Shown here one piece after another: positions 6,628-33,797 of a stretch of 33,797 bases of DNA. Origin of the DNA: Syncephalis plumigaleata (lineage: Eukaryota > Zoopagomycota > Zoopagomycetes > Zoopagales > Piptocephalidaceae); the NCBI GenBank assembly GCA_025201365.1, contig JAIXMF010000130.1, forward strand, positions 1 to 33,797, written 5' to 3'. Numbering within the stretch: the stretch's first letter is position 1; each line of letters starts with the position of its first letter. Below the pieces are notes generated by a model that was not told the DNA's origin, made no database searches, and was given only the letters and a program-made list of their open reading frames with translations. Both the position numbers and the translations under genes were made by a program.

Positions 6628-8095
6628 ATGTCTTCCGTTTCTGATCGTATTATAGCTGCGGCACCTGTACGTCGCAAGCGTAATGTGAAGAATCTTGGAT
6701 TGCCACCAAGTAAAGCGGATGACGCATCACCCAGCAAGCTAGCAGGTGGTGCAGACAACAAAGAGGGTGGTTTGGCTGCCGATAATAAAGCAGCGAAGGA
6801 TAACCCGCACAATGATGGTCAACTTGAAATTGGTGTAGAGTTCAAGTTGGATATTCGTCCAGAAGATTTGAAAATACTCGAGGAACTTGGTGCGGGAGCA
6901 GGCGGTACCGTAAGTCGCGTGCTACACGTGCCCACTCGTGTTGTGATGGCCAAAAAAGTAAGTGACATGCGATAAAGAGAGAGAGAGAGAGAGAGAGAGA
7001 GAGCAATAGCAACAATGGCTATGTGTGTAGTATAGCATAGTATAATATGCTAATGCATCATTGTTGGTATAACTGGTAGAATATTCACGTTGAAATGCAA
7101 CCACAAGTCAAGAAACAAGTTTTACGCGAGTTGGAAATCCTACATCATTGCGACTCGCCGTATATCGTTACTTTCTATGGCGCGTTCCTTTCTGAACCCG
7201 ATGTATGTATGTGCATGGAACATATGGATGTTGGGTAAGTATACTACACTCGCTATACGTAGATGTTATCATTATTTATTAAGATATTATTCATCATGAT
7301 TACCCCTGTTCTCTTCTATTTAGTTCACTTGATAATATCTATCGTAAACATGGAGCAATTCCTACACCTATTCTGGGTAAAATTACTGAAGCAGTAAGTA
7401 AATATTGTGTCTTCATATACGTATACATATATGTATCATCATTGATGATTAATGTAATGCTTCTTAGGTCTTGGGTGGTCTAGTCTACCTATATGAACAA
7501 CATCGTATTATTCATCGAGGTAAGCTAATGATGATGATGATGAATACATGCTCCTATATTAATTGTAATTAGATGTAAAACCATCCAATATTCTTGTCAA
7601 CTCTGCTGGTAAAATTAAAATATGCGACTTTGGCGTGAGTGGTGTGTTGATCAATAGTATTGCCAATACATTTGTTGGTACGAGTAATTACATGTCGGTA
7701 AGTGTGTACACTTTACTATGTCATTCTACTTGATAACTAATACTAATACTACTGCTATTCCTAATAAGCCTGAACGTATTAAAGGACAAGAGTATTCGGT
7801 AATATCGGATGTATGGAGTCTAGGTATTACTCTACAGGAATTGGCACTGGGTGCATTCCCATTCCCTTCAGGTTTAGCCATCTTTGAATTGCTACAATAC
7901 ATTGTTAATGAGCCTGTGCCTACACTTCCTGAAGGTAAATTCCCTGATATCTTTAACGATTTCATCAATCATTGTTTGGTGAAGGATCCACAGAAGCGTA
8001 TGACGCCCAAAGATCTAACAATGCACCCGTTCGTGCAAATGTCCATGATGGAAGATGTCGACCTGGTAGAATGGGCTGCTAGTGTAGCTAAATAA
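6628..8095 (+). CDS. MAP kinase kinase, Ste7/MEK1-like
   Basis: Six exons (6628-6957, 7080-7234, 7324-7393, 7468-7519, 7573-7697, 7769-8095) close to 352 residues. A dual-specificity kinase, it should phosphorylate the Thr and Tyr of a cytoplasmic MAP kinase. Visible are the glycine loop GAGAGGTV (88-95), the ATP-binding lysine in VMAKK (110), HRDVKPSN (201-208), DFG (221-223), the activation loop SIANT with the MAPKK S-x3-T phospho-sites (231, 235), and MSPER in place of APE. The N-terminal [11 protein letters not shown] (15-25) has the basic-then-L-x-L form of a MAPK docking site, as in MEK1 and Ste7. The N-terminus is otherwise disordered. It is short for the family but complete. The activation loop fits the Ste7/Byr1/MEK1 class better than Pbs2 or Mkk1, though subclass is inference. 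Confidence 0.93.
6976..7003 (+). repeat. (GA)n in MAPKK intron 1
   Basis: A GA dinucleotide run of about 28 bp lies 18 bp inside the first MAPKK intron (6958-7079). Confidence 0.95.
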
Positions 8096-18145: not shown

Positions 18146-19052
18146 ATGATGTCTATCCATGCTAGCTGGATCCCCCTCCTTTACTTAACGACTGCGTTAA
18201 TGAGCTATTGCAGTAGTCCCGCTGATGCCACACCAAATTTACCTGCTTTTCCTCAGGGAGGTAAGTATACTTGCTCGTTTATCGTTAATCTATTCCGTAT
18301 TCACTTGATGATATCTAGTAAACATCGAGCAATACACTGAATTCCTGGAGCGTTATAGCGATTATCGCATTATTAAAAATATTCCCCAGAACCGTGAAGG
18401 GTTATCAATCATTAGGGCTCGCCCTATACGAGAAGCAACCGATAAGGAAGACATTTACATGACATGTGGGCGAAAGAGGAATCCGCAACCAACACTGCTA
18501 TTCTATAGAGTAAGAAATCGGCGTATGCGTACTATTCCTCAAGCATTTGCTAACTATTAATACTTACTAGGAAATGATGCGACGAGAATCTAGTCTTGCA
18601 CAACAAAATCTGGACAAATTCGTGAATATACCGTCGTCTAATTTCCTTACCGAAAATTTGAACTGCTTCATTACATCCGCCAGATGTGATAGGACCATAG
18701 GAGATTATGTAGAATCAGATGAGTATAGAGTGAATGGTCGCAGTCGTTATCTTAGTTTGATATCCACCATAAATGATGGTATGTAATCGATGAGATGTGC
18801 AAGGAATCCTAGCGTGTTATCTAACGATAGTCTAGTGTGTGATCCATTTGAGCAAGCCGGATGGAGACTTAGCTTTATGAGTGAGCGTGAGTTGATACTA
18901 TAATACACTACAGCCAAATATGAAGTACTGACAGTTCCACTCGATTAGATATTTGCCTAAATCGTGACGCTAATAATGGAGAGGATTTATTTTTATTTGG
19001 ACCTAATCTACGTGTAACGAGGGTTCCAATCAGGCGTAACCTACTTGAATAA
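18146..19052 (+). CDS. Secreted protein of unknown family, 220 residues
   Basis: Five exons (18146-18260, 18319-18509, 18571-18778, 18836-18880, 18949-19052) close exactly to 220 residues and TAA. The first ~28 residues (ASWIPLLYLTTALMSYCSS core) form a signal peptide, and no other membrane segment exists, so export is likely. The mature part is charged, with five cysteines (in YMTCGR, LNCFI, ARCDR, GVCDPF, NICLN) and many Arg/Asn, ending RVTRVPIRRNLLE. I recognise no family. The individual exons are short and unremarkable alone, so the gene is easily missed. It lies 462 bp downstream of the 7TM gene on the same strand and ends 84 bp from the opposing stop of the ADCK1-type gene. A longer N-terminus from an upstream in-frame ATG (MSTSKARIS...) is possible. 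Confidence 0.65.
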
Positions 19053-19080
19053 AAACGAATATGATAGTGAATGATATTAT

Positions 19081-19117
19081 TTTGTTTTATTTTGTTTTGT
19101 TTTGTTTTGTTTTGTTT
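19081..19117. repeat. (TTTTG)n in a shared 3' region
   Basis: A pentanucleotide TTTTG array, with one TTTTA unit, lies in the 84 bp between two converging stop codons. Confidence 0.95.
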
Positions 19118-19136
19118 ACTGGTTATATGTCGGATA

Positions 19137-21078
19137 TTACATGAGTGCAGGCATTGCTGGTCCTTCGAGTAGTGGTAGCCAGTGGGATAGTTGCTCCGTT
19201 AATCGTAGCCATATACGTATTACGCGACAAGTAGTCTCGGCCATGAAGTAATGCCACCAACAAGTAAGATCGCCAAAGAATCGAGCAATCCTACCGCTGT
19301 TCCGTTGCTGTGCCGTCAACTTTGCATTATGTAGATCATCGTCCAAGATTGCACGATTACACGCCGACATCATTAGCGCAAGTCCATAGGCGGGATGACG
19401 TGTCGTGCCAAGTGATGCATCGACATTACGCAGTAAATCGTGTGTTTTAATGAGTAGTAGCACCTCTCGTGGTACATGACGTAGTATGTGTGCAATATCC
19501 GCGATATAGTTTTGCAAACTATCACGAACATGATGACGTTCCGCCTCCGAACGAGCCTGTGTTAAATCCGACTCGACAGCCGACCATGATCTACCCGTAA
19601 GAATACACGCAAACAGTCGATGTGTATTGAATCCACCGATACGTAATGCGTAAGTGCGCATATCCTCCTCGTTACGCTCCAGGATGGCACGCCATAAATG
19701 AGCATAATCCGTTTGCAACTGACGTGGTAATGATTTGTACAGTCCATGGTCTAACAGTACTAGATCGTAATTACGATCAAAGAAATGTCGTCGATTACGC
19801 GGTCTAATGAGAATGTTACCCGGATGTGGATCGCAATGAACCCATCCGTATTTGAATATCATATCGGAGAATATACGAGTCATCTCACTTGATACATCGT
19901 TCGTGTCAATGTTATTTTGTCGTAAGAATGCTCTATCATCAATGTACGCTCCTTGAATGACTAGTTCCATTATAGTGGTTAGTAAATCGAGTGTTATTAT
20001 ACATCCCTTTACTACTCACATTCCATGCAAAGTACTCGTGGTGTAGCCCAGTAAACTGCCGGCACTACCAGTGCACCTTTATCGTGAATAAAGTAATTAT
20101 GCAGACGTTCCGCATTATGTTGCTCCACTCGAAAGTCCAACTCCAACGGCAGACTTTGCTTCATTTCCTCGGCAAGCCAACCGAATCCAAATTCGGGAAA
20201 TAATCGTTCCACTGTGTCGACTAGCATGCTCGTAGTAGCTATATCAATTATCGCATGTTCTTGCAACGGTGGATGCTGCACCTTGACCGCCACAACATCA
20301 CCATTACGGAGGGTGGCACGATGTACCTGAGCCAACGATGCTACACCCAATGGTTCTGGATTGAATTCGGAGAATAGCTCATTCACCGGTTGTCCCATCT
20401 CCTGCTCGATCAACGCCTTGACATCCTCGATGGACGTGGGCGGGCAATGAGCATGCAACGGTTTCATGGCTTCCGTCCATTCCGATGGTAATATATAGGT
20501 CATGGCCGCCAAATGCTGACCCTACATCATTAATGATGACATTCCAATTAGGATGAGTAAGACTAGCAATGCTGCTCCTATTCGTTCCTTACCAGTTTAA
20601 TGTAGACACCACCATTGGTACGGCAAAGTGCCAATAATCGAGCAGCCGATCGTCGATGCCAGTCAGACCAGATTGCCTCGTAGTCAGGATCGGATTCGGA
20701 TAGATTAGCGCATGACTTTCGATAATCAATACCAATTCGTAATACGGCGTAGGCCGCTCGACTAGATCGTACGGCACCACCCCAAGCATGCGCGATATCC
20801 TGTCGAAACTGATAGCAACTCGCGCCAAACAATAACGAACTAGTCAGTAGAATACCGAATGCAGCACGACTACGAAGTGGCGGTTGTGGTCGACCGTAGT
20901 CGCGTAATCCCCAGGGTGGCCAACTACGCGTTCTACCTGGAATGAAGTCGTTCATTCTTATGGTACTCATATTCATATTCATACCACGTCTCATCGTCAT
21001 AGTCGCACTTGTACCGCCTATTCTATGCGTGCACCATAATGGACGACTAGTACGATAAACCTTGATGCGTGCTAGCAT
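19137..21078 (-). CDS. ABC1/ADCK1-type atypical kinase, mitochondrial
   Basis: Three exons (21078-20593, 20521-20020, 19960-19137) give 603 residues. The UbiB/COQ8 kinase-like family supports coenzyme Q and mitochondrial lipid homeostasis; the ADCK1 branch includes yeast Mcp2/Cqd2. An Arg-rich, acid-free start (MLARIKVYRTSRPLW) looks like a mitochondrial presequence, and AFGILLTSSLLFGASCY is one membrane segment. Family marks are KLGQ (161-164), the A-rich-loop equivalent PLGVASLAQVH (219-229), AVKVQHP with Lys 242, CDPHPGN (372-378), and LLDHG with Asp 400 in place of DFG. The last acceptor joins T|TC to give MEFIQGAYIDD, matching the family's MEF-x-x-G; an ATG inside the preceding intron could mislead an automatic caller. 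PLGVASLAQVH rather than the COQ8 form argues for the ADCK1 group. Confidence 0.92.
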
Positions 21079-21448
21079 TGTCAATTAACAGGCATATACA
21101 CGCCAATAATGAGTATCGTGTAGTTATTCTTAAAGGTGCGTGCGTTCGTGCGTAATTGAATGGCAAGCAATAATAGCGTGCTCGTTAACGTGGAGAAGAA
21201 TACATTCAATACTGATTATATAAATAATAATTAGAGAGAGAGAGGAGAAAGCAGGCGAGCTGGAATGAGCGGTGAGAAAGTGGCGAGAGGAGTACCAGCT
21301 TTAATATCACTACCATTTCCTTGTTCACTATTCTTGGCAATAGTACTGGATGCAATAACAATGGATAGCGGATTATTTCATACTAACTGCGTAAGCTTTA
21401 TTGTAAGGACATGATATATATATATATAGATGTATGCACGTATCGAAT
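21079..21448. other. Spacer upstream of the ADCK1-type gene
   Basis: This is the promoter side of one minus-strand gene and the 3' end of another. It has a GA run at 21234-21246 and a TA run at 21414-21428. No gene is seen. Confidence 0.4.
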
Positions 21449-21868
21449 TCATGGTTCATTCTTGGATGAATGCTGCTGTTTTACTTGTTCTTTTCTTTTT
21501 TCCATTTCTTCCGAACTGTCAATGGTTAACTTGGAACGCAGCTGACAGACAGTCTCACGTGTCCATCGACTTGTCAGCTCTAGTAGCGAGCAGCCAGGCT
21601 CTCTAGGATGATCCCTTTCGTAGAGTGCATAGGCAGCCACTCCTACTGATATGGAAAATAGTACATCGCCTACTCTGGTTGATTTTACAAGCAATGTCAC
21701 ATTATTGTAATAGATGCAGTATATCATATGAATCGAGTTAGCATGGAAATATCTCGATTATTGATGGATATATATTGCTGTATATTCGCTATTATTCTTT
21801 CTTGATTCAACTTTTACTTACGGTGATATGAAATGAGTGAATACACGATTTCTTACTGAATTTGCCAT
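21449..21868 (-). CDS. Nce101-like small membrane protein
   Basis: Two exons (21868-21822, 21674-21449) give 90 residues ending in TGA. The first exon is only 47 bp and encodes MANSVRNRVFTHFIS, joined in phase 2 to VGDVLFSISVGVAAYALYER. This single hydrophobic segment followed by REPGCSLLEL and a tryptophan fits the fungal Nce101 family, in which a DPLF-x-x-x-x-G-x-x-A-Y-x-LYE helix precedes PPGHSL-x-EL. Nce101 was named for non-classical protein export in yeast; its molecular activity is not settled. The tail is Lys/Glu-rich. The intron is 147 nt, longer than most here. An ATG inside the intron opens a competing unspliced frame that would lose the family's N-terminus. Confidence 0.75.
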
Positions 21869-22265
21869 GCTTGTTATTGTGTACAAACTATACGTGTGTA
21901 CATAGACAGGAATACACACACAGAGAGCGAGAGAGAGATGTAAAAAGTGAAGAGAAAAAGAAAAGTCGTCATTTCATGAATCTACTACCATCATTCGGAA
22001 GTCTATTCCGTTTGTGATACACAACAACAACTGGTCTATGTACGTTGTTTTCGCTAGTGTTATCATTACACATATGGTCTACTTTACTCTTTATTTTCTA
22101 TAGGAATAAATACTACCAATAGATTCTAATCAAATGTAACATGCCATGCTGTATTGTAATGCCGATTGTTATTATTATTACTATTACTATGTCGTCATTG
22201 ATACATCAACGTAGTCGTACCAGTAAATTTCACACTTTGATATACTCTATTCATCATTGCATCAC
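21869..22265. other. Spacer upstream of two divergent loci
   Basis: Intergenic, with GA/CA simple sequence at 21914-21936 and no convincing exon. Any missing 5' exons of the kinase-like locus at 22266 would be expected here, but none was found. Confidence 0.35.
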
Positions 22266-22825
22266 ATGATGGTTAGACGAGGAATACCGGCAGATAGATG
22301 TCTATCAATTTATCAACAAGTGAACGAATTAGTAGTGCTCTTTCTAAACACCAATCGTACGCCGCAGCCTTTAAAGTGTGAGGTTTATGACGACAAACAC
22401 CAATCAGTTAGCGGACACCTATCTTGTCCCACCATTTGAGATGCATGGCAGCCAAGCCTTTAGCATCTAAAAAAATGCTACTTGTAAATCGCCTTTAATG
22501 TCGTGCATATTCTCTCTCGTCTACTGCATTGTAAATGTCAATAATGATTAACAGCTGTGATTGGGAAGGAATACACTTGCATCAAGAATATTGTCTTGTG
22601 ATGGAGTACATTCGGCGAACAAGGTAAGCAATCGTACACATGACATAAGCGAGTAATGAGACTGTATAACGTAAAATGAGTATGCAACTATTCGAGCACA
22701 TTGTTCATCGTGTACAAGTTCATCGCATGACTGCCCACATCATCATCATCACTAGCATCATCAGTGTCACGATGTACTATGATGCACTAGTCATAATCGA
22801 TTATGGTCAACGTCAATGGGAATAG
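22266..22825 (+). pseudogene. Kinase-like gene remnant (possible pseudogene)
   Basis: Three exons with intact splice-like borders (22266-22375, 22555-22623, 22681-22825) join in phase to 107 codons and TAG. The product reads like pieces of a protein kinase in order: SIYQQVNELVVLFL resembles helix C, EYCLVMEYIRRT the hinge, QLFEHIVHRVQVHRM helix E, and DALVIIDYG strand 8 with a DFG-like triplet. There is no glycine loop, no recognisable lysine motif and no HRD-x-x-x-x-N catalytic loop, and it is far too short for a kinase domain of about 260 residues. Either it is a decayed copy, a small protein unrelated to kinases that resembles one by chance, or part of a longer gene whose other exons I missed. 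The first donor (GTGTGAG) is weak. Confidence 0.3.
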
Positions 22826-22950
22826 TAGCGAGCAATAGGCAAACATGAGCGTTGTTTAACACTGCAGTCATCCATTGATTTGTAAGTGCTCTTTGAAAAG
22901 AAAAAAGTGTAGCATTACTACCAATAAACGGTCGAGTGTTATTTCCAAGG

Positions 22951-22970
22951 CGTGTGTGTGTGTGTGTGTG
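22951..22970 (+). repeat. (GT)n microsatellite
   Basis: A GT dinucleotide run of about 20 bp. Confidence 0.95.
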
Positions 22971-23470
22971 CCTCATATGCAGTTACTGTCCGGTTCTCTG
23001 CTAATATGCCTTTCGGGCTTGTCCGCCCATCTATCTCGCATATACAAGCACGCACACGCACACGCACACATCCACACTTTCAAATCACCATTGCAACTTA
23101 CAGTAGCCATGGCAGAACTGGACTCGCGTGTGGAACTGGTACGTTCTGACTGGTTGTTTGAACCAGAATTTCTTTTTTTGAAACTATTTGTCGCCTCCCT
23201 TATTTGGATGACTGTGTCGAATGCGTGCATGCGTGTGTGATAATGATGGAATGCTGTGGTCGTTCTGCAACTGCAACAACTTCTACTGCTCCTACTACTG
23301 TTACCACTACTACTACTACTACGAAGACGACGCCTTGCATTCTTCGTGGTCAGTCACGGAGTAAAGTAACACAGCACACCACGCTTGCTCGGCTGTTTTA
23401 ATCGATAGCCATTATTTAATAAGACCAAAGAACGATCTAACATCACCTCTTTTCACTTCTACCAAGCCCT

Positions 23471-23488
23471 CACACACACACACACACG
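23471..23488 (+). repeat. (CA)n microsatellite
   Basis: A CA dinucleotide run of about 18 bp, continuing as looser CA-rich sequence to about 23560. Confidence 0.9.
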
Positions 23489-23744
23489 TCCACGAACACA
23501 CTCACATATTCACATACATCCTCACCTATATATTCACTTGCACATTCTACGTACGTATACTCCGTGCTACACGCCTACACGTTCATTATCATTGCCAATT
23601 TCATTTCCTTCTTTTAGGCCATCGTTGTCTTTTTCCGTTATTCCACCTTTCTTTTAGTGCCATTTCTGATTTATACTGACGACAGCAACATTCCTATCCA
23701 TTACTAGTGGATTATAAAAAATATCTACATACACTACTGCTATC

Positions 23745-24989
23745 ATGAACAACTTTATCCAAGATGTCACTCAGCTGGTAGCGCCTTCTGCGGGAGCTTA
23801 CGCTCTCTTGCATGTTTTCGCTAAAACCTGTCTTATTCCTTTACTGGGAAAACAACGTCAAATCAATGGTCTCTCCGTATCCGATCGAATTAATTTGGAT
23901 GGATTGTAAGTATTAAGACAAAAGACGAAGATCTTATTGTTGTTATTGTTGTTATTGTTACTGTACAATATGTAAATGGCCAATCGATCTAGATGTATGA
24001 TCATTTCCTTTTTTTTATTTCTGTTCTATAACATATGTCATGAACAAATTCATCGGCCGATATTATTTTTCTACGGTTACTAACCAATGCATATGTGTGC
24101 GTGTGTGCGTATGTGTACCTTACACGTGTTTAGAACCTCGTCTACCGTCCACGCCTTGCGTACAGGGATCGGGGCCATACGTCTCATCATGGTATTACGA
24201 GCATGGTCCCATGATACACTTCATCCCTACCCTGATGAGGCTCGCAATCTACTGGCGGAGCACGCCGGCTATACACTCTACGACTTGGCCGCCATGAGCA
24301 TGCAATCCTACAAACAGAGCGCCATGTGGACTCATCACGGCCTTGGCATTGCGGGCTCGTTGGCCATGCTCTACTATCGTCGTGCGTCATTCTACCCGAT
24401 TGCTTTCCTAGCCACAGAGATGACGGTGCCCGTGGTCAATGGTCTTTGGCTACTGGACAAGGTCTTTGCTAATGACAAAACACGCTATCAAGGTAGAGTG
24501 GGACAAATTCGTATTGCACTCGTTTGGCTACGAGCCGTGGTCTTTATCGTATTCCGTTTGATCCTCGGCCCGATGGCATTGTGGTATGGCATGACTCGAC
24601 CAAGTGCCGCATCATCAACAGCTTCATCATTGGTATCATCAGCATCGGCATCGGCATCGGCATCAGCATCATCCACTGGTACTAGTGTTGCTGATGTTTT
24701 CGGTGCAGGCTCGTCCATGTTAACCTCGAGCTCGACTCGTCCACTCAATACGACGGCTGCATTGGGCAAGGGTACATTCGATATCAACTTACCTGCCACG
24801 GCATCGACGTCACCATCATGGAAGACATTCTGGCAGCAGATGTTCCAACTTCCCATGCCTATCTGGGCAGGTACCACGGTTAACCTATTGATATTCTCGG
24901 TACTTAATGTTATATGGACTCGTGGCGCTATTCGTGCTCTACAACGTGAACTTGTCCGCTATCGATTGGCGCGATCCAACGTTCATTAA
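23745..24989 (+). CDS. TLC-domain multi-pass membrane protein (TLCD4/TMEM56-like)
   Basis: Two exons (23745-23905, 24134-24989) give 338 residues. TLC domains occur in ceramide synthases, TRAM, CLN8 and the TLCD proteins and act in ER or related membranes on lipids. The order of blocks fits: DRINLDGLTSSTVHALRTG at the start, GYTLYDLAAMS, WTHHGLGIAGSLAMLYYR with the conserved histidines, then TEMTVPVVNGLWLLDK. These match TLCD4 (GY-x-x-x-DLL, HH, LSSPFVNQRW), not ceramide synthase, which would carry a longer Lag1 motif. A luminal or cytosolic Ser/Ala loop (SASASASAS, from a GCATCG repeat) interrupts the segment before the last membrane span (AGTTVNLLIFSVLNVIW). The C-terminus is basic. The substrate is unknown. 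Confidence 0.82.
24641..24673 (+). repeat. GCATCG hexamer repeat coding Ser-Ala
   Basis: Four to five hexamer units encode alternating Ser and Ala in the variable loop of the TLC-domain protein. Confidence 0.9.
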
Positions 24990-27724
24990 TGCCATCGGCG
25001 TATGTCGTTCCATTGTTATGCGATCTATACACATGCACACGCACACATGTATAGGCGCGACACGTTTTTTTCCTTGCACACTTGGTATATTTTATGTTCA
25101 TATGTAGTACAGCAACCGTATTTGTAGTCAACTGATGATGGGTATGTATTTATAGGATATAGGATCACACTGTAAGATGTTGCAATGAGATTTAATCTAT
25201 CTATCTATCTATCCTTGATTGTAGTATTATAGGATGATGGATAAGAAAGACAGTGATGCATCAATAGTATCAACTATATAGCTGTTGCCCTTCTCTTTCT
25301 CCTTTCTCATTCTTTAATCGACATTCTACACTTTGTGTTCATATCTACATACTCTCACATACCCACACATACACGTCTACACGTACCGTTTTCTTGATCT
25401 TTTCTCTATATTTTATGTTATATGCTCATGTCATGTGTCTACGCCCTTTTTGTCTTTGATACTGCTAGTCATATACGTTTATTCTTAACTCGTACTATTA
25501 CATTATCATTATGACTTACTACAATGTTATCCCATTACCACCACCACTACTATTACTTTTATACATTCATGGTTAATTATTAGCCATTTTATCTTGATAT
25601 CATTTAACACGCAGTTATTATTAGATATTGTCGCTTGCCTGTTATGGCAAGTATCGTGTTTCAAATTAATAAAAGTCAGCAAGCTGGTGTTCAATCACAT
25701 ATACGCACATCACATTCATCCTAGTTCCGACTTTTTATTATTATTATCTCCTTCTTTTCTAAATACTCGTTCTTTTAGTGCCACTACTATATTTAAATAT
25801 CATTCCTCTTTCTATCGCTTACCATTTCTAGTATATACCGCATTCCATACTACTGCTTTGCTACTAAACATGCGGTGATTCCATCTGCGACACTTTCCTT
25901 CCTTTGTCTTTCTCCCCGTTATCCACACTTCTGCTTGCTTACCCCCCTCTTTCACTCACATCTCACCTTCCTTTTTCTTTCCCTTCCTTTCTCCTTCTCT
26001 ATACGGATGGGGTATACACGCAAACACGCCACATTCTCTTACTATTTCTTCTTCTTCTCTTCCTCCTCCTCTTCTTCTTCCTCTTCTATTCGGTTCAACC
26101 CGCTACATAGCATTTATTTCTTGCGTGTTACCAATACTAGTGGCTTGCCTTACGATCAACATCCTATTGTATCGTGATAGTTATAGTCATACACCCATCA
26201 ATACTCCACGCATCCTCTCCTCTCTCTCCTCTTCTACCGCGTAACCTTTCTCTTTCTCTCCGCCTAGAATTGATTCGGGTAAGTGTTACTGTTACAATTG
26301 TTGTTACAATTGTTGTTGTTGTTGTTGCGCAAACTATGGATAACTAGGCACTAGTAAACGACGGTCACTCCATCCGTTTACTATTGATGTGTATTGCTCA
26401 GTTGCTTATCTTTCCTTACTATCTTTTGCCATTTCTACTGCATGGCATGCTGCAGTATAGTAGTGTTGACGGTTCTTTTCCTCGTCTCCAACCATAGTAT
26501 ACTTGTTGTGTTGCACCCTGCGTGCATCATTTGCCAATCAATCCCGCCTTTCTTTATTGTCGATGGGCAGTCAGTATCGTTCGTTCTTGGAGTAGTATCG
26601 AACAGTTCGATACTTTGTTCTTATGAATAGAAACTATTAGTATTGCTCTCTTGTTCCTATTGCTCGCTACGTATAATACTTGCATTATTTCTAGCAGGAA
26701 TGATAGACTTTCTATTTTAAAGGAATCTGTTACACGGTATTCCTCTTCTTCTCTTCTTCTCTTCACCTCCTCCTCCGCATCATCATAGCCATACACAAGC
26801 ATAGGTATCATACTACAGTATTATTTTTTTTGCCTCTACTCCCCTTTTTCGTTCATACTCCCTCTTTCTCTTTCTCTCTTTCTCTCTTACTACTCGTAGT
26901 ATCGTCTCCTTAATTTTCCTCTATCTTTCTATTATTCCTTCACCAACCACTTTAACACTCATCCACTTATTCATTACTCAATAGTGCCAGTGATTAGCCA
27001 GTCTTTATTACTTATAATTCACGCAGTGCTCTATTTAAGCGGGTGTAGCTCCTTGCAGTGGCAAATTCCTTCGTTTTATGTAAGAAATGCAATCGTGACT
27101 GAATTGAATGTGCGCGGTACAACTATTCTACAGTCAAGATTTCGTATTATCGGTCCATGACATTTTGTCTTCTTTGACGTGTGCGTATATACGTGCACTT
27201 GCTTGCCTAGTTGTTTACACATGTAAATAGATGTGTGTGTATACATGTGTGTGTGTGCGTACATGTGTATGCGTAAGTGCATGTCTGTACCCGACATTAA
27301 TTGTAGTATCACATTGGCGACGAAGGCTACACACGGATGACGAGCCATGTTGCAGCAGCTGACTTCAATTGTCTCAGCTATAATCGCATGCTAAACAACG
27401 TAATACCAACTTATAAGAATGATAATAATGATGGCACTACTATGTCACAAACCATTAGATACAATGAAGGACAATTACTCTCATGATAAAGAACTCGCGC
27501 GCCCCTATTGTTTTGAATAACCGCCTTTGTCACACATTACGAGTTTGACGGCCTAATATGGATCATGTATCATTTGTCCTACACGCTTCTCTCTCTCTCG
27601 CTTTCCTTAGCTTGGCGTGATGCAGAGACGACAATGAGATAGTGTCACTGCATTATAACCTCTTATTTATATATATATATATTTGATGATGTCTTTTGGT
27701 GATTCCTCATTAGCAATTTATAGG

Positions 27725-27752
27725 ATTGTTTGTTTATTTATTTGTTTATTTA
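27725..27752 (+). repeat. TTTG/TTTA tetranucleotide array
   Basis: Imperfect tandem TTTG and TTTA units; the first of three similar arrays within 600 bp. Confidence 0.85.
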
Positions 27753-27988
27753 TCCATCTGCTATATTAATTATTATAGGCGGATCGTAATATCTGCAGGA
27801 CAGATTATTTATTCTATGGATTCATCTTTGTTACTCCCTTATTTACCTGTGTCAACCCTGGAACATATGTAGATAAGCGTACGTTTGTTAATTAAGGGAC
27901 ATGTGTTTGTGTTTGTGATTGTGTTTTGTTGTAAATGATTATCCTCAAAACGAGGTACAATTTAATTAATATAATTATAGCAACTAAT

Positions 27989-28022
27989 GTTTGTTTGTTT
28001 GTTTGTTTGTTTATTTATTTAT
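27989..28022 (+). repeat. (TTTG)n followed by TTTA units
   Basis: About six TTTG units run into TTTA units; the second of three arrays. Confidence 0.95.
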
Positions 28023-28306
28023 TAACTATGTTTTCCTCTAGTTTGACGATTACGGCCTTTATTTCCATCAACCAGTGAAGCAGAAAAACAACTAGGGCGC
28101 TTCATTATCCATTTAGCTGCGTCACACACCCTACATCTCTTTTAGTCTTTTTTATACCATTATTTCATCGAACATTAGTTAATAGTTCGCTTAGTTTAAC
28201 TTCTTTTTAGACGTAGTAATTGAGTACGTTGACTGTCTTGTCATTCTAAGCAATACAATGGGCATAGAAGCATCTCATTAATTATACAACTCGTACTAAC
28301 CATTAT

Positions 28307-28337
28307 TGTTTGTTTGTTTGTTTGTTTGTTTGTTTAT
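28307..28337 (+). repeat. (TTTG)n array
   Basis: About seven TTTG units ending in TTTA, like the preceding array; about 125 bp upstream of the next start codon. Confidence 0.95.
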
Positions 28338-28462
28338 TTCTTCCGCTTATTTTTTATAGTTAAATCCATATTGGCATATTGTTTCAGTAGCTACTGTCGT
28401 TAGCTACTATCCTTATTCTCTTCTTCTAATTCAGTAAAGTTGTATTGTCATTTCACCGTGGC

Positions 28463-30168
28463 ATGGCGTTGGAGTGCCGGCAGCCTGCCTTAAGGCGGGT
28501 AACCGGTCATACTACTAAGCCGTTAAGCTGGCGGCGTGCAAGTCTGATACTTTTCGCATTGGCGGTATCCATCGTATCGGTTGTCTCGGCTAGCGCATTA
28601 ACCTCCAGTAAGTGGAAAACAACAATAGAAAGTGCAATCATATTGAAGCAATGACGTTTGCAACATTCTATGAATAAGCCATCTATCTCTTTATTCCATT
28701 TTGCTAATTAATCATTCGTTCCGTAGATTATGGATCACTTGCGCGACGTGCTGATTGCCCAGCGGGACAAACTTTTTGCGACAAGTTCGGCTGCGTCAAG
28801 GGCCTTCAATGTCCACACGGTAAGTGTTACACTAATGATGAATGGCAACGTAGCATCAACTTTATCGTCAGTACTAATACGACTATTGTTAGCGTGCGCT
28901 TATAACGATGACATGCTGGCATGTGATCGTGTCAAGGTCAATGGTAACCAGTGTGTTTGGTGGGGTAACCAGTGTATTCCGAGTAAGTGCAAGGAAGAGA
29001 ACAAACAATGACCTTTACCGTTTATACTAACAAACGACATTGTTCATTTGTTCATCTATAGATGTCCAGTGCAGTATGAAAGAAGGAAAATGCTCGGAAG
29101 ATTGCAATTTATGCGGCGGTTTTGGCTGTGTACCACGCGGTCAGCAATGTCCCACTGGTAGGTATTCCTCGTGGCTCTTCTCCTCTCCTCCAGTAGATTT
29201 GACTAATAGTAATCAATCTGTTCATTATGATATAATAGGTTGCGAACAATTTACAGCTAAGGATCGTTGTAATCGTTACGTGGCCAGCAATGGTATTAAT
29301 TGCTTCTGGAATCCCTCGCATAATATCTGTGTCTATGGTAGGTATACTATTATCATTAGTTATACTCTCATATAATCATAATTCGATTGACTAACAACTC
29401 TTTGTTGCACATTGATACTATCCAGCAAAGTCCAGTACGGTATTAGGTGAATTGCAACATGAGCCTAGTGCCATTGGTGGAACCGCTTCACCAGAACCAC
29501 CTCCATTGGATATTCTATTGGCAATACGTAGAAACTTGTTAGCCAGAAGACCATCCCTGCTACCGGATGGTGAGAGGATATTACCCGCTCAAATGGAGAC
29601 ACTCGGACAAGCGGCAGCTAGTAATAGTGATAATGGTGGTGATGCTGGCAGGCCTACATCTAATAGTATAGCAACAACAGGCAATGACAGATTGGGCGCT
29701 GAACAATCCGGCGACAATGCCCAGTCCAATAGCAACGCATCGAATGGTAACAGACCCTCCGGCACTAGAACTAGTAAGGATAATACACCCACCGCAGTTA
29801 GTGCCACACAACCAGCTAGTGCAACATCGACGAGTGACGGCAACGACCCGAATAATAATAATAATGGAGCCATGGATGCCAGTCTACAACAATCGACGAT
29901 ATCTGGCTCGATTAAACTATGGGTCGCATTATGTGGTGTGGCAGTGGCACTAGTAGCCGTTGCAGGTATTGCCTTCCTAGTGGTACAGCAACGAATGCGT
30001 GCACGTCGCGAACTACTGGCCGAACAGCGTAATGCAGAGATGCACAACATTCATCCGGAGCATCGACGAGAATCGTTGCTTCCCTACGTGCAGAATGCGT
30101 TAAGGGCTGATGATATGGTGCAAACACCACCAACAGCAGCAACTGCCAACAGTAACAACTACCACTAA
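28463..30168 (+). CDS. Type I membrane protein with duplicated cysteine modules
   Basis: Six exons (28463-28607, 28727-28819, 28893-28982, 29062-29157, 29239-29337, 29426-30168) close to 421 residues. A basic leader and hydrophobic stretch (ASLILFALAVSIVSVVSA) look like a signal peptide or anchor. Exons 2-5 each encode one cysteine module of 30-33 residues. Exons 2 and 4 share FGCV-x-x-x-x-QCP; exons 3 and 5 share C, then NG-x-x-C-x-W, then C, giving an A-B-A-B order. The B module resembles a PSI-type C-x-W pattern. All five introns are phase 1. A long Ser/Asn/Thr-rich, probably O-glycosylated stalk (about 185-335) leads to one transmembrane span (about 338-361, LWVALCGVAVALVAVAGIAF), then RMRARR and a 60-residue tail. 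No kinase or other enzyme domain is present. I do not recognise a named fungal family; a cell-wall or surface sensor is a guess. Confidence 0.8.
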
Positions 30169-30987
30169 TGGTCATCCATTGTAATAACTGATGATCTCAA
30201 CCGATAACAAAGATATATCATCGTTGGATAGCTATACCATGATTATATTCGATGCTAACAATACTACTACTACTACTGCCACTACAACCACTACCATCAC
30301 CACTAATAATAATTACAATACTAATAGTAATAATGCCGGTAAAATGATAAAGATATTGAAGACGATACTGATCATAACAATAATAATAATAGTTGAGATA
30401 AGGCTTAAAGAACAATCCCTAAATCATCATACATTTGGTCATCATCGTCGTCGTCGTCAATTATTGGATAGCTCCACTAGTTTTCCAATATAAATCATTA
30501 CTATAGCTCATATATATATACAGTATTTCATAGCATCGCATCGTAGTAAATCTTTCATTATTGGTATTATAATTACAATTTTGTACTTTTCCTTTTCTCT
30601 CTCACTCTTTTTATTTAGTATTGAATATGTGTGTGTGTCAGTACCAGCATAGCTCTTTATTTAATTTGCTTTACAGCAAGTGTTCTATTCTTATTATCGA
30701 TATAAACTAACAACGACACTACCGGCTATTTCTATCTAATTCCTATTTAATATTACAAGTATTATAATGATGAAATATTGAAATGATCATTGTTTGTTAT
30801 AAATAACACTTGCAGCTATAGCTTTATAACAATATATAACAATATAGACATACATCTATCATACACTGTCTAATAGTAGGGCATGTTATTTATTAATAAA
30901 AATCGATAGGTTTGGAAATATCAAGTAACAACCAATGATGTGAGTATACGCGCGTATAATTCTAATTCAATGTAGACATTCATGTCA
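30169..30987. other. Convergent 3' region, modular membrane protein / uL10m
   Basis: The sequence is AT-rich, with ACT/ATT triplet runs at 30260-30330 and 30375-30395 that create a low-complexity open frame. Nothing else is supported. Confidence 0.5.
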
Positions 30988-31992
30988 TTACGAAGTATCT
31001 TGTAAATTCTTTTGATGTCCCTCCAATGTACGTGCCAAATCTTTTGGTATACGTCCTAGCAACGAGCTTAACTGTTGTGCTGGCGCTGATAGGAGTCCCA
31101 CCAATTCTGCACGTAGCGTGTGAATGTCTGGCAACTCGGATACACGTCGAATACCATCGGCAGTAAACCATTGTTGATCAAATCGACCGCCTAGTAGGAT
31201 CAATTTACGATTCTTTTGCAATACATCGAGAACACGTTTCACGACAGCGGGATCAGCCACACTAGGCGCGGATGTAGATGATGGCGTAGTAGCGGCGGAT
31301 AAACGCACCAAACAAGTGGGACCACATAGCCAGGCACGTAGTTCATCGTAGCGTGCTTCGCGAGGAAGTGCCGCACGCATAATGGCCACACGTACCATTT
31401 CCAGTACGACACTTGATTCCGTAGTGTCGGCACTCATTGGCACGATCGAGTTGCTATTAGCGAATGCAGTACGTAAATCCGAACGTAGATTAATCAATTC
31501 CGTGGATGTCATGTTATTATGCTGCAATACTAGAACACCACCGGTTGCCGATTGACTATTCGGGCTGAGTACATCGCAATAATGTGTGAATAAATATTGT
31601 TTACGTTCAGGGAACGGTTGATTCGGACGACGCGTGGCAAATGAAGGCTTATACGGTTGACGGGCAGCGGACGCGTCTATTATTATTATTGTCGTTATTA
31701 TTATTCCATAGAGTAAATATTGAATCAATAATAATAGACTGGTGCTAACTTACATGTTCTAGTGATTACTACGCGTAAATCGGACAATATTGACTTTGAC
31801 ATTGTATTCATTATACTAGATTCTGTAGGAATAGATAAATAGGAATAGGAAAAAGATCCGACAAATATAAATATACCATAGTATGAGTGCAATTACTACT
31901 ACTACTACTATTATTATTTACTTACGACTCGTCCATGGACGTAGACTTTGAACTGCCATACGCGTGGCAGCGTCCAATCTTAGTAATCCCAT
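30988..31992 (-). CDS. MRPL11: Mitochondrial large-subunit ribosomal protein uL10m
   Basis: Three exons (31992-31926, 31822-31754, 31676-30988) give 274 residues; yeast Mrpl11 is 249. The protein forms the base of the L7/L12 stalk on the mitochondrial ribosome. The two small first exons supply an Arg/Ser-rich presequence (MGLLRLDAATRMAVQS, ITRTYASAARQP). FPERKQYLFTHYCDVL, VLVLQHNNMT and LINLRSDLR follow the uL10 pattern, as do GPTCLVRL, LILLGG, then ELPDIHTLRAELVGLLSAP and QLSSLLGRIPKDLARTLEG at the C-terminus. A Thr/Ser/Pro insertion follows GPTCLVRL. Without the upstream exons the frame appears to start inside intron 2, which would lose the targeting peptide. Confidence 0.88.
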
Positions 31993-32835
31993 ACTAGTAA
32001 ACGTAAATAAGAAGGTGTATACCACTACTATTGAGAACAAGAATAAGAATAATAGTGAGAGCGGTGTATTGTCTTGTGTGTGTCTATGTGTTTTGAGTGG
32101 GTGAAATGGTGTCTCATTATGTGTGATGTGTGATGTGATGTGTGTGGTGGTGGTATCTCACCATCTCATAAAGACATCACATAGTACTATCACGGGGGGT
32201 GGATTCACTCTCGTCCAAACGTACGCCACGTCTATACTTATTGTACTGGCCGCTTTAACGCGTATATAAGCGCATCTCTACAGGTAGGATGACAACCAAT
32301 TTATTGAATCATTCTAGATATACTGGCTATACGGATGGATGAATCGATAGATGGATGGATGGATGCATGATGATTGAACGTATGATTGCATGGATATACG
32401 TAATACTGAGAGAGAGAGAGTTGGTTATGGCGTATACGATGGCATGTACATCATGTCCGGATAACTACATAGTAGTTGATATAGATATATATATACATAC
32501 ATATACCTGCGTAATATCTATTAGAAGGAATAGAGAGCGAAAGCCCTGTAGTTAAATAATACGACTAGCTATCTTGTAATAAGCTTTATTCTACTACAGC
32601 TTATCTATAGGTAATATATACATGCATATATCATACACCTATACACACATACTCTCTCTCTCTCTATGTATATAACTAGTAATAGAACGGAGTAACGCTC
32701 TATACGACATTCTTTGTTGGCTTTAGCGTCGAATGTCAGCATGCAATGACGTGGCATACGTCCATCCAGTACATCATGTAGCATTTTATTAACGGCATAC
32801 TACTTATTATTTATTTATTCATTATATGGATAGCC
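31993..32835. promoter_or_regulatory. Divergent intergenic region, uL10m / Stm1-like
   Basis: About 840 bp separates two divergent translation-related genes. A GT-rich tract at 32070-32155 (TGTGATG repeats), GGAT repeats at 32334-32364 and CT/TA runs near 32651-32672 are visible. No coding exon was found. Confidence 0.4.
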
Positions 32836-33764
32836 ATGGCCAGTGTTGCATCTAACAATCCGTTCGCTTTCCTTAATGACGACGACGAGGGCAATAACAT
32901 TGCTCCGTCTACCGTCGCTCCAGCAGCACCAAAGGACAAGAAGCAAGCCGCCAAGGACAAGAAGCAAACTGCTAACAAGGCCGCTGCTACTACCTCAGCT
33001 GCTAAACCAACTGCCGTTGCCGATAAGAACCGTGGTAGCCAACTGGCGCGCGCTCTAATGCTCCAGCCACTCGCCCAGCCACCGAAGGTATGCACGAAAC
33101 ATTAATGTATATAATTGGCCGTATTACAAAAGAAACCATAGTAATAATGATAATGTTACAATGGTAAATAGGTCGCAACTACGAGGCTGAATCTCGCGAT
33201 GCTAACCGAACCCGTCGTGGTGGTGCTGCTCCCCGTCGTGGTCGTGGTGCTGGCCGCGGTGGTCGTGGTCGTGAATTTGACCGCCACAGTGGTACTGGTC
33301 TAGTGTAAGTGGTTATTTATCTCCTTATCATATACGTATATATTGTGCGGTTACTTACTATATTTACAATGCCTACTAATGATGATTAGTGACTCAAAGA
33401 AGAAGGTCGAGCAGGGTTGGGGTCACACCGGTGCCGACTACAGCGAGACCGATAAGGCCGCGTAAGTATTAAGAATGCAATGGTCAATTAGTTTTGCGTA
33501 TAGGATAGTAATTAATGGATACTATGTTTCAATTGATGATGATGATGATGACGCAGTAAGAGCAACGAAGAAGCCGTTGAGGAAGTACCAGAGGAGGAAC
33601 AAGGTCCAGCTGTAAAGACTCTCGACGAGTACTTGACCGAACGTACCGAAAAGCTCAAGCTTGCCGGTGTCGAAACCCCCGAGGTTCGCAAGGTTGAAAA
33701 CGCCGAAGAATGGAAGAACACCCGTGTGCTCAAGAATGAAGAAAGCAACTTCTTTGTTGGCAAG
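32836..33764 (+). CDS. Stm1/SERBP1-like ribosome-binding protein (3' end outside window)
   Basis: Exons 32836-33034, 33067-33087, 33172-33304, 33390-33461 and 33557-33764, then GTGAGT into an intron leaving the window. Stm1/SERBP1 proteins bind 80S ribosomes and mRNA, preserving idle ribosomes. The start ASNNPFAFLNDDD matches the family's NPF-x-LL opening. A Lys/Ala-rich linker, an RGG stretch (RRGGAAPRRGRGAGRGGRGR), DRHSGTG and KKKVEQGWG are diagnostic (yeast has DRHSRTG and KKKVNQGWG), followed by KTLDEYLTER. Within the first coding block the frame shifts by one base between NRG and the sequence before intron GTATGC. I bridge it with a 32-nt GTAGCC...CCAG intron, shorter than any other here; a one-base deletion with ARSNAPATRPATEG retained is the alternative. 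The exons after 33172 are secure. Confidence 0.85.
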
Positions 33765-33797
33765 GTGAGTATTGCGTGAACATGCGCGTGTAGCATA

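Follow-up and report, generated by a model that had tools for sequence, protein, structure and literature searches.

A predicted fungal surface protein whose cysteine-rich head appears to repeat a two-exon unit between phase-1 introns

The genome of the zoopagomycete fungus Syncephalis plumigaleata (32.6 Mb in 383 contigs) contains a six-exon gene for a putative surface protein, in which each of four short exons carries one cysteine module, all five introns are in phase 1, and the second pair of module exons resembles the first. The gene lies in the window, that is, the whole stretch of DNA analysed here (positions 1-33797 of contig C36, 33,797 nucleotides). The observation of six exons is sound and confirmed, the existence of a repeated two-exon unit is well supported, and the doubling of this unit through its introns is plausible. 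As for the role of the product, it may sit in the plasma membrane as a type I protein and act in the manner of Wsc-type wall sensors, with a head produced by the doubling of a pair of exons; this combined proposal is put forward tentatively, at a little under an even chance. As far as searched, the gene appears to stand alone, with a modular organization that has not been described.

The reading frame opens with the ATG at 28463 and closes with the stop codon at 30166-30168 of the forward strand, and its coding sequence of 1266 bp gives a protein of 421 amino acids (Table 1). The five introns all have GT-AG borders, with the donor GTAAGT in three of them and GTAGGT in the other two, and each of the five junctions splits a codon after its first base. 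Exons 2-5 had originally been predicted as blocks of 93, 90, 96 and 99 bp between phase-1 introns, and both these coordinates and the five phases were reproduced; each of the four symmetric phase-1 exons holds a single cysteine module. The protein has 20 cysteines, one at residue 5, another at residue 344 within the membrane span, and the remaining 18 in exons 2-5 (4+4+6+4). The region that follows the head (residues 176-342) is composed of 13.8% Ser, 12% Ala, 10.2% Asn and 8.4% Thr; with 22% of Ser+Thr this stalk is moderately Ser/Thr-rich, and it shows one N-glycosylation sequon. Taken together with the two hydrophobic stretches of Table 1, this composition bears out the predicted stalk, single membrane span and tail, which is the layout of a type I surface protein. 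Two tracts of GTTT repeats are present upstream of the gene, at positions 27989-28013 and 28308-28336 of the window.

Table 1. Exons and introns of the gene, in window coordinates (residue numbers refer to the protein)
Feature	Coordinates	Strand	Description	Evidence
Exon 1	28463..28607	+	145 bp; start codon, basic N-terminus of ~25 residues, hydrophobic signal-like sequence ~23-49	donor GTAAGT, hydropathy, gene finder
Exon 2, module A1	28727..28819	+	93 bp; C-x6-C-x4-C-x5-C, FGCV...QCP	gene finder, shuffles
Exon 3, module B1	28893..28982	+	90 bp; C-x8-C-x9-C-x-W-x4-C, NGxxCxW	motif scan; omitted by the gene finder
Exon 4, module A2	29062..29157	+	96 bp; pattern of A1 plus extra C113 and C124	gene finder, shuffles
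Exon 5, module B2	29239..29337	+	99 bp; C-x8-C-x10-C-x-W-x6-C	gene finder; sub-threshold Pfam PSI match
Exon 6	29426..30168	+	743 bp; Ser/Ala/Asn/Gly/Thr-rich stalk, span ~339-361, tail of ~60 residues, stop	coding score 57.1, hydropathy, gene finder
Intron 1	28608..28726	+	phase 1, 119 bp	
Intron 2	28820..28892	+	phase 1, 73 bp; coincides with intron 4 in the alignment, immediately 5' of the first Cys of B	
Intron 3	28983..29061	+	phase 1, 79 bp	
Intron 4	29158..29238	+	phase 1, 81 bp; coincides with intron 2 in the alignment	
Intron 5	29338..29425	+	phase 1, 88 bp	

A self-trained gene finder, based on 196 kb of sequence from 53 loci, none shorter than 2.5 kb (with the window included and near-duplicates and three second-copy stretches removed), predicted exons 1, 2, 4, 5 and 6 with identical borders, and omitted exon 3, joining exon 2 to exon 4. 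The coding scores of exons 1 to 5 are near zero (0.1, 2.2, -2.8, 0.2 and 4.2, respectively), and only that of exon 6 is strong. Exon 3 might then be a cassette exon, or no exon at all, and the main product would have an A-A-B head; we consider this quite improbable. The splicing chosen by the gene finder points in that direction, as do the negative coding score of exon 3, an acceptor at the 19th percentile of the predicted acceptors (that of exon 6 being at the 9th), a length whose removal keeps the reading frame, and the accumulation in its 90 bp of 3 of the 12 coding differences from a second copy of the gene described below, two of which change the amino acid, but its donor GTAAGT stands at the 62nd percentile. 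Moreover, exon 3 is credible because the loose motif C-x(6-10)-C-x(7-12)-C-x-W-x(3-10)-C was found in exons 3 and 5 only, among 391,670 six-frame codons of a set in which the majority of loci had been chosen through a DNA pattern that targets a portion of this same motif.

Accepting the six exons, the likeness of the two units was compared with that of shuffled sequences. Exons 2+3 and 4+5 are identical at 18 of 50 positions, a similarity whose score was equalled by 2 of 5000 shuffles with fixed cysteines and by none of 5000 free shuffles. Taken separately, exons 2 and 4 resemble each other (14 of 5000 cysteine-fixed shuffles as good), whereas exons 3 and 5 do so weakly (349 of 5000), a value that is not significant alone and no better than those of the cross pairs; the other pairs gave 371 (2-5), 435 (3-4), 581 (2-3) and 4394 (4-5) of 5000. 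These counts indicate that exons 2 and 4, together with the joined unit, account for the repeat signal. The alternating resemblance of modules originally proposed is clear for module A and weak for module B taken alone, and the growth of the head by duplication of a two-exon unit is supported, chiefly through exons 2 and 4 and the comparison of the complete units. The spacing of the eight aligned cysteines is also similar in both units (7-5-6-4-9-10-7 against 7-5-7-4-9-11-9), with 489 of 200,000 permutations as close in a test from which C113 and C124 of exon 4 were excluded. Altogether, the pairs 2+3 and 4+5 have the look of a single unit that was copied and then diverged. Since introns 2 and 4 occupy one aligned place and all the junctions are in phase 1, a copy of the exon pair would preserve the frame. 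The introns themselves are not alike, as 280 of 300 shuffles were as good for introns 2 and 4, and 206 of 300 for introns 3 and 5; the closest of the ten intron pairs were 1-3 (6 of 300) and 2-3 (12 of 300), of which only the former agrees with copied units. Either the duplication would be an old event or the introns would have arrived later.

A different explanation is that the phase-1 pattern is incidental, with introns entering the gene of a secreted protein at linkers that favour phase 1, and with a repeat formed without any exon duplication. Although we regard it as unlikely, it would fit the dissimilar introns of the supposed copies, the four consecutive phase-1 introns, with eight phase-0 introns next in line, of L069, an unrelated gene predicted to have 15 exons and fourteen introns, and the general enrichment of phase-1 introns in proteins with signal peptides that is described in the excerpts considered of PMC1626468 and PMC8001218. 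The shared aligned place of introns 2 and 4 argues against it, and the proto-splice-site account given in the same excerpt of PMC8001218 is not favoured because none of the five junctions reads AG|G and one of the five splits a glycine codon. With respect to base rates, the 258 other introns predicted by the gene finder are distributed as 130, 70 and 58 in phases 0, 1 and 2 (27% in phase 1), and five phase-1 introns out of five have p ~0.0015 against this 70/258 rate of predicted introns, a post hoc value for a gene that was chosen for its phase pattern. Among the 38 predicted genes with at least three introns, this one, in the four-intron version of the gene finder, is the only one with all its introns in phase 1. 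A signal-like N-terminus was found in three predicted genes, the studied one among them, which are too few to give a phase base rate for secreted proteins. The idea that symmetrical phase-1 exons are not typical of fungi is consistent with the text excerpted from PMC8001218, which takes exon shuffling to be confined to Metazoa, asks for the reason, and finds the prevalence of phase-1 modules puzzling, and with that from PMC1626468, where intron-bearing fungal secreted proteins are too rare for its statistics. However, it is weakened by the general enrichment given in both sources, and by the significant alignment of exons with domains in some fungi that appears in the excerpt of PMC6547436.

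The original prediction also saw in this gene the signature of exon shuffling known from animal extracellular proteins, and this is right as regards the symmetric phase-1 exons with one module each, but does not extend to shuffling between genes, as no other copy of a module was found in the genome. Searches of the genome with the 126-residue head and with the peptides of exons 4 and 5 returned the gene and its second copy only, at E <= 10, although the absence of further copies is not proven because the first pass of this search is lossy. The DNA pattern for NGxxCxW was present at 111 genomic sites, compared with 83 for the reversed-pattern control. In 61 of these 111 sites, which were read by eye, in-frame module cysteines were found only at the two sites of the gene itself; the other 39 of the 100 sites listed were either the two sites of the second copy, sites with 21 bases identical or nearly identical to those of a site among the 61, or sites interrupted by a stop codon in the frame. 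A candidate second gene at C35:662514 (L072), with four cysteines upstream of the motif, was rejected since the motif lies out of frame inside another gene, which we take, from inspection by eye, to be Skn7-like (HSF plus response regulator). As no further copy was found in the genome, an internal duplication of the exon pair is favoured over shuffling between genes. On the side of the literature, no such gene is described in the titles and abstract beginnings among the matches listed for fungal exon shuffling, fungal PSI/plexin-repeat proteins and protist surface antigens.

The second copy of the gene is part of a longer correspondence, in which positions 18659-33797 of the window align to contig C112 (~2.019-2.034 Mb) with 98-99% identity over the 15.1 kb compared. 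Its coding sequence shows 12 substitutions and no indels in 1266 bp (98% identical), and retains the frame, all the splice sites and all the cysteines. The changes between both copies are few (7 non-synonymous and 5 synonymous), with a pN of 0.0072 against a pS of 0.017, and the three that map to the tail are all synonymous. The C112 copy looks like an allele, which would correspond to the second haplotype of a heterozygous genome. Regarding other genes of the window, a predicted gene of three exons for a mitochondrial uL10-like ribosomal protein adjoins the studied gene (30988-31992, reverse strand); its best PDB match is 6ywe (E 1.1e-11), presumably from Neurospora, followed by bacterial L10 (5.8e-7) and mammalian chains (0.0018-0.0034), which we assigned by molecule name. 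This ranking agrees with a fungal genome, as do the Skn7-like gene and a WSC-domain gene described below. A protein kinase domain is found at 6628-8095 of the forward strand (Pfam Pkinase, E 5.1e-65), in what looks like a MAP kinase kinase, whereas a predicted seven-exon gene of 542 amino acids at 398-2489 of the reverse strand has no Pfam match at E 0.01. CotH was also looked for and not found.

The identity of the modules was addressed with Pfam profiles and predicted structures. The best Pfam E-values were no lower than 0.11 for the whole protein and 0.5 for the head, and module A had no match. Exon 5 matched the Pfam PSI profile with E 0.0018 by itself (19.0 bits, positions 2-30 of 52) and with E 0.0012 when short flanks were included (19.6 bits, under the cut-off of 23.1, positions 2-32 of 52), this being the best of 13 pieces scanned; the match disappeared when exon 5 was inside longer constructs, and exon 3 had no match to PSI. 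Exon 5 also matched the Paramecium surface antigen domain (PF01508) with E 0.017 and 0.052, as did exon 3 of the second copy (E 0.059), and exon 3 of the window did not. Exon 5 was also shuffled ten times, with C fixed in five cases and both C and W in the other five; none of these sequences matched PSI or PF01508, but one reached E 0.046 with an unrelated family, which places matches near 0.05 at the level of chance. Module B may at best be called PSI-like, as a lead and not as a classification. The sub-threshold matches of the stalk and span to Podoplanin (E 0.036) and a holin (E 0.034) were dismissed as noise from low complexity and membrane sequence. AlphaFold models of single-exon peptides, in which the partner exon was the only other row of the alignment and for which the likeness of the pairs is out of reach, gave a helix (7-17) and two strands (22-24 and 29-31) for module B (pLDDT 84.1, pTM 0.46), and a hairpin (14-17/21-24) with short bridges for module A (pLDDT 83.1, pTM 0.40). 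Structure searches gave no match.

Wsc-type sensors act on the cell-wall integrity pathway by way of Rom2 and Rho1. By hydropathy and composition, the protein described here has a signal-like sequence, a cysteine head, a stalk, one span and a tail, and Wsc sensors show a cysteine-rich head, a stalk, one span and a cytoplasmic tail (excerpts of PMC9024836 and PMC6685044). The best reading of the sequence would be a Wsc-like layout in a protein that is not a member of the WSC family. No match to WSC (PF01822) at E <= 10 was found in the whole protein, the head, the units or the B exons, and membership of the Mid2 (PF04478) or CFEM families (the profile of the latter presumably being PF05730) was rejected because they are absent from the Pfam matches at that same E <= 10, a range in which the HMMER filters discard most matches above 0.1. 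A search for Mid2 in the genome itself was silent, but as its control was silent everywhere too, this result carries no weight. In the proposed mechanism, the signal sequence would be cleaved near the end of exon 1 and the 18 cysteines of the head would pair as disulfides, so that the two tandem units may form a rigid head able to grip a wall polymer or a partner, whereas the flexible and probably O-glycosylated stalk would cross the inner wall. A pull or the binding of a ligand would then make the protein cluster, and the tail would relay the signal. The head itself would have arisen through duplication of the exon pair, introns included. The lack of any family match to signalling in the Pfam scans counts against a sensor, and so do the modest Ser+Thr content of a stalk with a single sequon and the presence of a separate WSC-domain gene elsewhere in the genome (L104, C270:3848-4099), which is predicted to be intronless and has a long low-complexity region after a hydrophobic segment.

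An identical layout would equally suit a wall-linked or cell-cell adhesin with no signalling, in which the head binds, the stalk displays it and the tail is just an anchor, and the stalk and tail do not contain any domain recognised by Pfam. Unlike in expanded adhesin families, however, no copy of the gene was found beyond the apparent allele; the exclusively synonymous differences of the tail also speak against an adhesin, though as little evidence. According to the excerpt of PMC4136848, protist surface proteins often carry repeated cysteine motifs, which would agree with a binding role, and in all we judge the adhesin somewhat unlikely. A bolder version of the receptor proposal, also rather unlikely, would combine PSI-like half-modules with a new cysteine module, each on a class 1-1 exon of its own and multiplied by recombination within introns, and a head made variable by frame-preserving exon skipping; extracellular modules would then have been duplicated as exon pairs in an organism that is not an animal.

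A gene of this type in a fungus, in which every symmetric phase-1 exon holds one cysteine module and the exons are doubled as a pair, would offer a simple test case for deciding between introns-first and repeats-first histories. It would also provide a surface-protein head with no match above the cut-off to any of the Pfam models used.

Among known systems, the metazoan class 1-1 modules have the same coincidence of module and exon borders, all in phase 1 and repeated within one protein, whereas the present case is fungal, involves no recognised mobile module and has no copy found outside the gene. The likeness to Wsc1-type sensors (PF01822) covers the signal sequence, the cysteine-rich head, the stalk, the single span and the tail (excerpt of PMC9024836), but the gene described here has two repeated cysteine units instead of one WSC domain of PAN/Apple fold, and the WSC gene of this genome is a separate one, predicted without introns. 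In the case of the PSI domain (plexin repeat, PF01437), exon 5 aligns with a part of the profile that none of its shuffles matched, but it does so under the 23.1-bit threshold, and exon 3 does not take part. As for the Paramecium surface antigen domain, exon 5 and exon 3 of the second copy hit about the same stretch of the profile (29-57 of 62), although with scores under the 21.2-bit cut-off and near chance. Finally, the Ser antigens of Tetrahymena are GPI-linked, according to the excerpt of PMC4136848, whereas the protein of this fungus is predicted to span the membrane.
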